Of a stretch of DNA of 64,000 nucleotides, positions 43,519 through 47,058 are shown piece after piece. The notes below the pieces were generated by a model. That model saw only the letters and a program-made list of their open reading frames with translations, had not been told where the DNA came from and did not search any database. The stretch is from Chitinophaga sp. XS-30 (GTDB lineage: Bacteria > Bacteroidota > Bacteroidia > Chitinophagales > Chitinophagaceae), in contig NZ_CP043006.1 of assembly GCF_008086345.1 (NCBI RefSeq), forward strand, positions 5,578,032 through 5,642,031, written 5' to 3'. A program made the translations under genes and the position numbers. Positions within the stretch are counted from its first letter, which is position 1; each line of letters starts with the position of its first letter.

Positions 43519-44712
43519 ATGCCCAACATCAGTCAACGCGGACAGGTTATGCCGCCCTCTCCCATCCGGAAGCTGGTACCCTATGCGGAAGCCGCAAAAA
43601 AGAAAGGAGTAAAAGTCTACCATCTCAATATCGGCCAGCCGGATATTGAAACGCCCAGGCCTGTACTGGACGCGGTAAGGCAATCCGAATTCACCATACT
43701 GGAATACAGCCACAGCGCCGGTAATGAAAGCTACCGCCGCAAGCTGACCGGTTACTACAAAAAATTCGATATCACGGTAGACCACACGGAGATCATTGTT
43801 ACCACCGGCGGTTCCGAAGCCATCCTGTTTGGCCTTATGGCCTGCCTGGACCCGGGCGACGAGGTGATCATCCCGGAACCTTTCTATGCCAATTACAACG
43901 GCTTTGCCGTGGAAGCCGGCGTAAAAGTAGTGCCGGTGACCGCCACCATCGATAACGGTTTTGCACTGCCGCCGATCGGGGATTTTGAAAAGCTCATCAC
44001 CCCCCGCACCAGGGCCATCCTGATCTGCAATCCCAATAACCCTACCGGCTACCTGTACAGTCCAGCCGAAATGGAAATACTGAAAGATATCTGCCTCAAA
44101 CATAACCTCTTTCTCTTTTCAGATGAAGCTTACCGGGAATTCTGCTACGATGGCCAGAATATTTCCGCGCTGAACCTGAGCGGAATGGAAAACCATGTGG
44201 TGATATTCGATACTATCTCCAAGCGGTACAGCGCCTGTGGCGGCCGTATCGGCGCTATTGTGACCCATAACCGCGCCATACTGGATTCCGTCATGAAGTT
44301 CGCCCAGGCGCGCCTCAGCCCGCCCAGCTTTGCACAGATCGCTGCTGAAGCGGCGGTAGATCTTCCGGATGATTATTTCGACGGGATCAAGGCTGAATAC
44401 CAGAGCCGCCGCGACCTGCTGGTAGATCTGCTGAACAAGATCCCGGGCGTGTACTGCCCCAATCCGGGCGGCGCATTCTACGCCATTGCGCGTTTGCCTA
44501 TCGATGATGCCGACAGGTTCTGCCAATGGTTGCTGGAATCCTTTGTTTATGAGCAGCAGACCGTTATGCTGTCTCCCGCTACCGGCTTTTATGCCACTCC
44601 CGGGCTTGGACTGCAGGAAGTACGGCTGGCCTATGTGCTGAACAGGGAAAGCATTGCCAGCGCCATGGAGGTACTGGCAAAAGCGCTGGAGGTGTACCCC
44701 GGCAAACAATAG
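43519..44712 (+). CDS. PLP-dependent aminotransferase, class I/II
   Basis: 397 residues. Fold type I with NIGQPDIETP, TTGGSEAILFG, CNPNNPTGYLY, SDEAYREFCYDG and the PLP lysine in TISKRYSACGGRIG. Resembles bacterial aspartate or broad-specificity aminotransferases; specificity cannot be read from sequence. Not obviously in an operon. Confidence 0.9.
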   Translation: MPNISQRGQVMPPSPIRKLVPYAEAAKKKGVKVYHLNIGQPDIETPRPVLDAVRQSEFTILEYSHSAGNESYRRKLTGYYKKFDITVDHTEIIVTTGGSEAILFGLMACLDPGDEVIIPEPFYANYNGFAVEAGVKVVPVTATIDNGFALPPIGDFEKLITPRTRAILICNPNNPTGYLYSPAEMEILKDICLKHNLFLFSDEAYREFCYDGQNISALNLSGMENHVVIFDTISKRYSACGGRIGAIVTHNRAILDSVMKFAQARLSPPSFAQIAAEAAVDLPDDYFDGIKAEYQSRRDLLVDLLNKIPGVYCPNPGGAFYAIARLPIDDADRFCQWLLESFVYEQQTVMLSPATGFYATPGLGLQEVRLAYVLNRESIASAMEVLAKALEVYPGKQ

Positions 44713-45497
44713 CGGCTCCACGTTTTTTCTGCGGCTGATCCGGCGCAATGCGGCCATGAAGTGCTATGGCGATGACCGCTGGCGAGAGCGCTTTTATTCA
44801 TCTGAATGCAATACATTTTATGAGCGCTCCTGCTGATACGGCAGGGAACCGTGGAAAACGCCTCCGTATACGTCTTATGACGCGAGTTCGCTGATACAGC
44901 CGGTTAAAAATATCTGTTCATCTAAAAGTAACACCCGGAGAACAATAAAGAAGGGCGTGATAACGCTTATAACACGACAATGTTTTTTCTGCAGCATTGT
45001 ATTTTTCGCGGAATATTAATACTGTAGCGGGTTTACCCTAAGAGATGCCCACACTGGCGGCCATACTGATGCAGAATTGCTATAGTTGTTGAAATTCGTA
45101 CCTGGCAGAAAACAGCAGATCCCGATGCTCTTTTTGTTAAAATCAGGCAGTGAATAGCAGAAAACGGGAAAGGTTGTTATATCAATTCAGCAAAAAACCG
45201 ACAAATTCATGTTAAAAAAACATTACCCTTTAAAAACATGACAAAAATCATATTTCAAAAAAGATCGGCCGTAAGCCTTGTCAATACCCGATATTTGCAT
45301 TAAAATAAATTCTATATGAGTTATTTTAACCGTAAACCGCATTTTTTAATGAAATAGAGTTTTGAAATTTAAATTTATTCCCTACTTTTACTGTGTAATT
45401 GATACGCAAAGGAACTGAAAAGAATAAATAGTAAAAATTACAATACATGTTGAACAAAATTCTAAACCTGCTTAGCAAAAATTTAACTTGTATAATT
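44713..45497. other. gene-free region upstream of the tandem RNA candidates
   Basis: About 785 bp, strongly AT-rich from 45170 onward. Includes an ACAATG/CATTGT hairpin with a T-run (44977-45007). No ORF, tRNA or rRNA is seen. The region appears to be regulatory or RNA-coding rather than protein-coding. Confidence 0.5.
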
Positions 45498-45527
45498 TTG
45501 ACAAATGGGAAAATGGCGCGACCTTTG
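45498..45527 (+). promoter_or_regulatory. promoter of small RNA candidate 1
   Basis: TTGACA (45498-45503), 16 nt, GACCTTTG (45520-45527). Only the last part fits TAnnTTTG, but the spacing is right. Confidence 0.4.
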
Positions 45528-45533
45528 CATTAT

Positions 45534-45659
45534 AAACATCAGATAAAAAGACGGCGACAAACTAAAACGTTTTAGCTAAATAACATATTTTTGTATCAGT
45601 TTTTCATAACGTGGAATTTATAAAGGCAAACGGCTCTGTTCACAGAGCCGTATTTTTTT
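45534..45659 (+). ncRNA. candidate small RNA 1 with conserved 3' segment
   Basis: Predicted from promoter (45498-45527) to intrinsic terminator (45630-45659). Contains the palindrome CTAAAACGTTTTAG (45562-45575) and then, from 45598 to about 45633, a segment repeated in candidate 2 with about 90 percent identity (AGTTTTTCATAACGTGGAAT). The stem ACGGCTCTG/CAGAGCCGT follows immediately with a run of T. No ORF of note. Not matched to a known RNA family; expression is unproven. Confidence 0.4.
45630..45659 (+). terminator. intrinsic terminator of small RNA candidate 1
   Basis: ACGGCTCTG (45630-45638), loop TTCA, CAGAGCCGT (45643-45651), then ATTTTTTTT. Confidence 0.85.
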
Positions 45660-45748
45660 TTCCTGATCTCCCAACTTCTTCCCCACTCCAACCGATTGCA
45701 GGTTGATCGCCTGCATATTACGGGAAAATTTCCCGAAGATGCCGGCAG

Positions 45749-45781
45749 TTGACAATCCATTTTTTTCCTAATATTGCTTTG
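45749..45781 (+). promoter_or_regulatory. promoter of small RNA candidate 2
   Basis: TTGACA (45749-45754), 19 nt, TTGCTTTG (45774-45781), the same -33 hexamer as candidate 1. Confidence 0.4.
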
Positions 45782-45787
45782 TAATGA

Positions 45788-45893
45788 AAAGACAAGGGTG
45801 GGGTATTGTGTTTGCAATACCTTAACGCTAGTTTTCATAACGTGGAATTTTAAAATGCAAACGGTCCCGATTCCTCGGGACCGTTCCTTATTT
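45788..45893 (+). ncRNA. candidate small RNA 2, paralogue of candidate 1
   Basis: About 106 nt. After a GGTATTG/CAATACC hairpin (45802-45821) it has AGTTTTCATAACGTGGAATT (from 45830) and CAAACGG shared with candidate 1, followed by the stem ACGGTCCCGA/TCGGGACCGT (45861-45884). The terminator stem differs in sequence but not in position, so the shared part is not simply a copied terminator. Candidate 1 and 2 start about 254 bp apart. Alternatively this hairpin only terminates carA on the minus strand. Confidence 0.4.
45861..45890. terminator. terminator of small RNA candidate 2 and of carA
   Basis: ACGGTCCCGA (45861-45870), loop TTCC, TCGGGACCGT (45875-45884), followed by TCCTTATTT on the plus strand and TTTGCATTTT on the minus strand. 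Confidence 0.75.
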
Positions 45894-45915
45894 ATAAGAA
45901 GATCAGAGAACAGGA

Positions 45916-47058
45916 TCAGGCGGTTGCTGCCTTCTCTTTCACTTTTTTCATGTCTGCCTTTATCATTGTAAAGAAATCATCGAATAGATAGCGGGAATCG
46001 TGGGGGCCGGGTGTTGATTCCGGATGGTATTGTACGGAGAACGCCGGCTTACCTTTAATACGGATGCCTTCCACCGAATTGTCATTCAGATTGATATGCG
46101 TTACCTCCACGTTCTGCGATGCCGCCACCGCTTTTGCATCAATGGCGAAACCGTGATTCTGGGTAGTTACCTCACATTTGCCGGTCAGCAGATTTTTCAC
46201 GGGATGATTCAACCCGCGGTGCCCGTGGTGCATTTTATAAGTGGGAATACCGTTGGCCATGGCCAGCAGCTGATGCCCGAGACAGATGCCGAATAAAGGC
46301 CGCTCCGCATCCAGTACTTTTTTAATGGTATCTACCGCATAGGCCAGCGGCGCCGGGTCACCGGGACCGTTGGAAATGAAATAAGCATGCGGCTGAAAGG
46401 TTTCGCACTCCTCAAAGGAAGTAGCTGTCGGGTGTACTTTCAGGTACGCTCCTTTCTCAGAGAGGCATTTCAGCATATTGCGCTTTACGCCATTGTCCAG
46501 CACCGCTATCCTGATATCGGCATTGGGATCACCCACGAAATAGGGTTCCTTTGTAGACACTTCCGCACAAAGCGCAAGCCCTTCCATAGACGGCACTTTG
46601 TTCAGCCTGGCTTTCAGTTCAGCCTCATCCAGTATCTCGGAAGAAATAATACAATTCATAGCTCCTTTGCTGCGGATGTGCGATACCAGCGCACGGGTAT
46701 CCACCTCGTGGATAGCCACCAGGTTATTCCCGGCTAAAAACTGCTCCAGGGATTCATCCGCCATTTTGCGGGAATAATTGTATGCGATGTTTTTACAGAT
46801 CAGTCCGCTGATCTTCACATCACTACTTTCCACATCCTCTTTTTTTGTTCCGTAGTTACCCACGTAACAATTGTTCATGATCAGCACCTGGCCTTTATAG
46901 GAAGGATCCGTAAAAACTTCCTGGTAGCCGGTCATACCCGTATTGAAACAAAGCTCACCGGCTGCGGTGCCTATTTTCCCGAACGCTTTACCATGAAAAA
47001 CGGTGCCATCTTCTAACAACAGTATGGCTGGCTGTGTGGATCTGGTGGTTTGCGGCAT
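45916..47058 (-). CDS. carA: carbamoyl-phosphate synthase small subunit
   Basis: 380 residues. N-terminal CPSase small-subunit domain (LLLEDGTVFHGKAFG) and C-terminal class I glutaminase domain with the nucleophile Cys in FGICLGHQLLA and the His-Glu pair near VQYHPESTPGP. Supplies ammonia to CarB for arginine and pyrimidine synthesis. CarB is not in the window. Bidirectional hairpin at 45861 follows. Confidence 0.97.
   Translation of the reverse strand: MPQTTRSTQPAILLLEDGTVFHGKAFGKIGTAAGELCFNTGMTGYQEVFTDPSYKGQVLIMNNCYVGNYGTKKEDVESSDVKISGLICKNIAYNYSRKMADESLEQFLAGNNLVAIHEVDTRALVSHIRSKGAMNCIISSEILDEAELKARLNKVPSMEGLALCAEVSTKEPYFVGDPNADIRIAVLDNGVKRNMLKCLSEKGAYLKVHPTATSFEECETFQPHAYFISNGPGDPAPLAYAVDTIKKVLDAERPLFGICLGHQLLAMANGIPTYKMHHGHRGLNHPVKNLLTGKCEVTTQNHGFAIDAKAVAASQNVEVTHINLNDNSVEGIRIKGKPAFSVQYHPESTPGPHDSRYLFDDFFTMIKADMKKVKEKAATA

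Follow-up and report, generated by a model that had tools for sequence, protein, structure and literature searches.

Tandem small RNA gene candidates of Chitinophaga and their predicted pairing with start codons of polysaccharide-utilization genes

The locus and its two units

The window, that is, the whole 64,000-nt stretch of Chitinophaga sp. XS-30 DNA that was analysed, comes from the single contig of a 6.18-Mb genome. An aminotransferase gene (43519-44712, + strand; Pfam Aminotran_1_2) and carA (45916-47058, - strand; named by eye) flank an interval of about 1.2 kb (44713-45915) that is without a credible gene, as the initial annotation of this DNA had said. Two units follow one another there in the same direction, each carrying a 33-nt shared segment (45601-45633 in unit 1 and 45832-45864 in unit 2, 91% identical) that directly precedes an intrinsic terminator, and a 441-bp region covering this arrangement matches its own genome at one place only. 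The first description of the locus, two same-direction units with terminators, a segment of about 90% identity before both stems and stems that differ from each other, is borne out on each of these points.

On the + strand, the terminator of unit 1 occupies 45630..45661 (stem 45630-45651 plus a T-run) and that of unit 2 occupies 45860..45890 (stem 45860-45885). Within the shared segment lies the 18-mer TTTCATAACGTGGAATTT (45602..45619, + strand), called here the anti-start-codon seed for its genome matches on start codons; the 18-mer of unit 2 (45833..45850, + strand) is identical. The predicted unit 1 RNA extends over 45598..45659 (+ strand, about 60 nt), its start being placed by the promoter box described below, with further support from an end-to-end, sub-threshold alignment to the Rfam FopS model and from the near-invariance between box and terminator in 28 aligned rows. 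The predicted unit 2 transcript extends over 45783..45890 (+ strand, about 105 nt) from a presumed start. A peptide reading of the shared segment was rejected: it gives ITWN in one frame in several families, with no conserved start codon and with frame ends that differ, as judged by eye.

Conservation within the genus

A search for the conserved segment across Chitinophagaceae, suggested with the first description, found the 33-mer (at up to three mismatches) in 3 of 147 sampled family genomes, which are the sample's only three Chitinophaga. The 15-mer core (at most one mismatch) occurs in 79 of 79 genus genomes, some of the matches listed being other loci or chance. An exact 19-mer scan of GTDB species gave 66 stretches, 57 of them named Chitinophaga, and the unit-1 arrangement is present in 56 (54 named Chitinophaga, plus L133 from [Flexibacter] and L164 from Flavihumibacter); the ten without it are L134, L137, L145, L148, L158, L161, L173, L180, L182 and L193. 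Wherever the loci cover the neighbouring genes, CarA lies convergent downstream of unit 1 (54/54) and the aminotransferase upstream (51/51), and a second seed follows 208-268 nt downstream of unit 1 in 38 of the 56. Because of this fixed synteny, the covarying stems and the presence of the core at further loci whose bodies differ, the units appear to be genuine small RNA genes belonging to a family found throughout Chitinophaga.

Covariation of the stems, also proposed as a check at the outset, was examined in 31 sequences from several seed families, with 500 shuffles and slid controls. The terminators do covary, with 70 cells showing changes on both sides against a shuffled mean of 25.8 (reached in 0/500; slid controls at most 27), while two of the five measures do not exceed shuffles: both-side changes occur in 7 of 9 stem pairs (shuffled mean 5.8, reached by 77/500) and further pair types number 16 (shuffled mean 16.7, reached by 426/500). 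Folding energies compared with shuffled sequences give a z of -4.55 for unit 2 and of -2.67 for the longer unit 1 originally proposed.

In the fold predicted for unit 1, part of the seed is base-paired. In unit 2 a 5' hairpin is predicted (45784..45838, + strand), in which the 5' end ATGAAAA can pair with TTTTCAT of the unit's own seed. Over 38 sequences it has a mean z of -2.64, with 35 of the 38 below -1; RNAalifold did not recover it, so the case for its conservation rests on single-sequence folds.

Promoters and unit lengths

The sequence TAnnTTTG is the Bacteroidota (Bacteroidetes) promoter consensus for the -7 box. A match to it, TATTTTTG (45586..45593, + strand), stands directly 5' of the shared segment of unit 1 and is present in 52 of 56 loci. 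The initial annotation had instead placed the unit 1 promoter further upstream (TTGACA ... GACCTTTG, 45498..45527, + strand) and had given both units bodies of 110-125 nt. Comparison does not support that promoter or that length for unit 1, since TTGACA (45498-45503) is found at the same position in 13 of the 56 relatives as against 52 of 56 for TATTTTTG; it may be a possible second promoter. In an alignment of 28 unit 1 sequences the stretch from ATTTTTGTATCAG to the terminator is nearly invariant, and the sequence upstream is divergent save for a palindrome. Because the conserved TATTTTTG box directly precedes the shared segment, unit 1 is probably an RNA of about 60 nt with that segment at its 5' end, rather than one of 110-125 nt.

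The TTGACA elements fare no better in unit 2, where the copy at 45749-45754 is at the aligned position in the window only, among the unit-2 rows listed, and the conserved box is TAATATTG (TAnnATTG; 45769..45776, + strand). Two of the 23 rows in the unit-2 alignment set come from elsewhere, L042 from a gene start and L055 from another family. A simple sigma-70 scan found promoter-like sites to be no commoner than in shuffles (3 vs. 3.5), so the case for the promoters rests on conservation. Two relatives (L002 and L188) have a shortened unit 2 without the usual 5' hairpin, in which TACCTTTG lies a few bases 5' of the seed in a unit-1-like layout.

An operator candidate shared with sugar genes

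The palindrome conserved upstream of unit 1, CTAAAACGTTTTAG (45562..45575, + strand), is perfect and lies over the -33 region as a LacI-type operator candidate; its center, AAACGTTT, we take to be a LacI/PurR-type core. There are exactly three exact copies in the genome: the one at unit 1, one with a LacI-family gene on one side and a SusC-like gene on the other (L258) and one 5' of a GH92 gene (L257). At a distance of 6 kb from the GH92 copy, two MFS transporter genes (one identified by scan as MFS_1, the other by eye) flank a weaker palindrome site. When two mismatches are allowed, the reversed control gives more matches than the true pattern (28 vs. 11), and for this reason only exact sites were used. 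Among 26 sampled genus genomes there are 42 exact sites, all inspected: 27 precede unit 1 (in 26/26 genomes), six precede GH92 genes and four SusC genes, both of these assigned in the relatives by eye from translations, and five are without assignment (L365, L367, L370, L371 and L372). One genome, G189, has two unit-1 copies with the palindrome, a canonical one (L369) and another whose -7 region has diverged (L355). The occurrence of CTAAAACGTTTTAG both at unit 1 and at sugar genes beside a LacI-family gene is what a candidate LacI-type regulon would look like, and the sites found agree with it.

Complementarity to start codons

Translation starts are where the shared segment finds its complement. 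At up to three mismatches the 18-mer has 19 matches in its own genome, against five for a reversed control, and in seven of the 17 non-self matches CAT falls on the first ATG of an open reading frame of at least 385 aa. By Pfam, these seven are three SusC-type TonB receptors (L062, L065 and L073), two GH16 proteins (L060 and L067), a GH43 protein (L068) and a sulfatase (L061). The other ten comprise an E-type RNA (L064) and an anti-seed locus (L063), both described below, a site that a NusG-domain gene follows after about 45 nt (L058), two sites well upstream of SusC genes (about 146 nt from the first ATG in L069 and about 377 nt in L072) and L059, L066, L070, L071 and L074. Predicted duplex energies range from -16 to -35 kcal/mol.

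Permuted seeds, run against 464 kb of the genome's own DNA with 515 starts, give 0.47 start matches per genome equivalent when ATGAAA is held fixed and 0.90 when GTTATGAAA is; seven observed against 0.90 expected has a Poisson probability of about 4e-5. One shuffled control seed, run against the whole genome, gave five matches, none of them on a gene start. Genes of glycan use make up 7/7 of the targets and 3-4/39 of the background genes that start with ATGAAA (about 6e-6 for 7/7 vs. 4/39). These 39 include two with TonB plug and CarbopepD_reg_2 domains, one SusD and one DUF3823 gene that neighbours these in the window. At E <= 1e-8 the 39 contain no glycoside hydrolase and no sulfatase, and eight are without a family.

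The targets are few, and all were identified in a single genome. Within three mismatches the seed matches 3 of 56 SusC starts (permuted means 0.03 or 0.34, the latter reaching 3 in 1/300), and at four, five and six mismatches, counting the first ATG only, 33, 108 and 68 of 300 permutations with GTTATGAAA retained score at least as many matches as the true seed. A model with SusC genes as universal targets is therefore unsupported, its advantage over those permutations being gone at four to six mismatches, and most SusC genes are not evident targets. Some of the extra seed matches in relatives are antisense to gene starts. Outside Chitinophaga, three of the seven 19-mer stretches that are not unit 1 lie at gene starts (L134, L137 and L182), so that AAATTCCACGTTATGAAAA by itself is start-like in Bacteroidota.

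The NusG-like gene that follows the seed complement at L058 (near 1411.4 kb of the genome) has a counterpart at L243, where the complement lies at the gene's start; we presume these genes to be UpxY-type, and the matches possibly link the RNAs to surface polysaccharide.

Seed, anti-seed and phage-borne copies at other loci

Further families, too, carry the seed in sense ahead of a terminator: a family in which GACCTGAGTGC lies 5' of the seed, a metH-adjacent family in two versions (E beside comF and F beside recR, gene names assigned by eye) and the family of L055, with a GGCTGCC terminator stem. In the genome studied here, a scoring model derived from the family itself finds three strong members (74.3, 70.5 and 60.9 bits, the next being 33.2), the third of which is of the E type (1178548-1178615). 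Our own model R1, run against the 147 family genomes, matches 89 at E <= 0.1, including the three genus genomes, which are the only ones above 60 bits. Thirteen loci outside the genus and seven in the genome itself were inspected, and most of these look like generic terminators after AT-rich DNA. Several carry a TTTTCATA- or TTCATAA-type segment before a terminator (L272, L277, L279, L280 and L281, with L300 at 3582063-3582129 and L302 at 1379380-1379443 in the genome itself); these short RNA candidates may be distant relatives of the family.

The anti-seed locus (L063, near 595.2 kb) is flanked by a NUDIX-type regulator gene and, on its other side, by a methylmalonyl-CoA mutase-like gene (neighbours assigned by eye and checked for L063 and L234); in it the reverse complement of the seed is followed, in the same orientation, by a terminator-like hairpin. 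The anti-seed is found in relatives with diverged flanks (L210, L228, L038, L039, L215, L220, L221, L230, L231, L234 and L249), the core TTCCACGTTATGA being kept while flanks and terminator vary. It is a fair guess that this locus encodes a decoy RNA.

Phage- or prophage-like copies, four on viral contigs (L197, L199, L200 and L201) and three on genome contigs (L173, L053 and L238), have TTTTCATAACGTGGAAT followed by an ACCGGC..GCTGGT-type hairpin, whose G-U pair forms on the TTTTCATAACGTGGAAT strand in six of the seven and on the other strand in L199, as judged by eye. In L197 and L173 the segment is preceded by TTTTTGTATCAG. Same-strand genes or non-coding stretches come next, and there is no clear T-run after the hairpin.

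Proposed role and alternatives

We consider it likely that the two units are Chitinophaga-wide small RNA genes that repress polysaccharide-utilization mRNAs through a start-codon seed. The conserved genes, the boxes, the terminators, the seed, its complementarity to start codons and the shared operator sequence are computed from the DNA, and from these we infer that the units are transcribed and where they start, that they pair with and repress their targets in vivo, and which way sugars control them. Each unit would present the seed UUUUCAUAACGUGGAAUUU directly 5' of its intrinsic terminator; the seed would pair across the start codon and the 12 nt or so upstream of it in SusC-like, GH16, GH43 and sulfatase mRNAs, and so block ribosome loading on messages for polysaccharide capture and breakdown. 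Unit 1, under a LacI-type operator shared with the GH92 gene and with the SusC gene beside the LacI-family gene, would be induced with that regulon and would lower the translation of other glycan systems, and the 5' hairpin of unit 2 would partly hide that unit's own seed.

The initial annotation had left open whether the shared segment pairs with targets or binds a protein. Start-codon complementarity favours the former; if the segment only bound protein, there would be no reason to expect its complement at start codons, which makes that role on its own less likely. It seems unlikely to us that the segment serves above all to bind an RRM protein while other parts of the RNA select the targets, even though it stays invariant next to a changing stem at loci whose bodies are unrelated, and even with two RRM_1 proteins encoded in the genome and the binding of the RRM protein RbpB, which counteracts FopS, to the 5' part of the FopS RNAs of Bacteroides (parts of PMC11697453). 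Protein binding alone predicts neither that complementarity should fall on the start codons of one functional class of genes nor that an RNA-like locus should carry the reverse complement of the seed; the two roles can coexist.

Descent of the segment from a repeat or mobile element, as translation-start-like sequence that happens to be antisense in an RNA without regulatory role, would fit the occurrence of AAATTCCACGTTATGAAAA at gene starts in other Bacteroidota, but it sits poorly with fixed synteny, a conserved box and operator and covarying terminators, and we give it very little credence. It is hard to believe at all that the units are cis-acting leaders or attenuators rather than trans-acting RNAs: the phage- and prophage-like copies do lack a clear terminator and are followed by genes on the same strand or by non-coding DNA, but both units have complete terminators and lie tail to tail with carA in every locus that covers it, with no downstream gene to control.

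The preferred reading, repression through a start-codon seed, can be extended to a genus-wide network, which we put forward tentatively and hold to be somewhat doubtful as one whole. Seed RNAs from the tandem pair, the metH-adjacent locus and the GACCTGAGTGC family would address glycan genes via their start codons; the conserved anti-seed RNA from between the NUDIX-type regulator and methylmalonyl-CoA mutase-like genes would act as a sponge for them; one seed RNA would be wired to the LacI-type regulon with its GH92 alpha-mannosidase-family gene; and phages would carry the same 5' module. If so, FopS-like control would be widely placed in Bacteroidota and would have gained a decoy arm, none being described for FopS in the parts of PMC11697453 drawn on here.

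Post-transcriptional control of polysaccharide utilization has been shown in Bacteroides (parts of PMC11697453). If Chitinophaga does have a FopS-like family that uses a seed of its own and is tied to a sugar-type regulator and perhaps to a decoy, start-codon seeds would become a more general device, and perhaps a means by which Bacteroidota rank their glycan systems. Seven testable targets are named here in one genome.

Comparison with known systems

Tandem small RNA paralogs with a shared seed and different bodies are familiar from the enterobacterial OmrA and OmrB, which act on mRNAs of outer-membrane proteins; these are Hfq-dependent and belong to an unrelated phylum, and their likeness to units 1 and 2 is that of a paralogous tandem pair with a shared seed. 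Among the matches listed in the open-licence PMC literature, no paper on small RNAs of Chitinophaga was found.

At gathering scores Rfam has no match in the window. The FopS model (RF04319) aligns over its whole length (positions 1-71 of 71) to 45597-45662 at 21.8 bits (E 0.56), below its gathering score of 56 bits, and unit 2 has no listed FopS match; the best of the other families, L20_leader, reaches 27.1 of 58.7 bits, and these matches we read as AU-rich sequence plus terminator. Ten bases near the 5' end, GTTTTTCATA, are identical to the published FopS consensus, with a local score that 13/500 shuffles reach and that is weak alone. Two candidates from other Chitinophagaceae genera, picked by eye (L277 and L279), are closer to that consensus (0/500 shuffles), and Rfam at E <= 1 does not list FopS for either.

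As described in parts of PMC11697453, FopS RNAs consist of a single-stranded 5' stretch and a terminator, number 14 paralogs in B. thetaiotaomicron and pair close to the start codon in mRNAs of susC and of some glycoside hydrolases. The same parts describe the GibS RNA of Bacteroides, which uses a seed in common with FopS to pair at the translation starts of glycan-related mRNAs, as predicted for the present units; it differs in having two seeds and another promoter motif, and is set beside the units here by description. Unit 1 and FopS are alike as short RNAs with a 5' seed followed by an intrinsic terminator and with a 5'-terminal GUUUUUCAUA, the order being the same while the seed, single-stranded in FopS, is partly paired in the predicted fold of unit 1. 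Both families have a canonical promoter directly upstream (TATTTTTG in 52/56 unit-1 loci, with TAnnATTG in unit 2) and several paralogs per genome (the three strong members here); the start regions of SusC and glycoside hydrolase mRNAs, targets of FopS, are predicted targets here by complementarity. Beyond the ten common bases the seeds differ (ACGUGGAAUUU versus GUAUUAGAUUU), and unlike FopS the Chitinophaga RNAs show a tandem pair, a LacI-type operator, an unlinked anti-seed locus and the 5' hairpin of unit 2. The best reading is that the family is FopS-like by layout and predicted targets, while lying outside FopS by the rule of Rfam.
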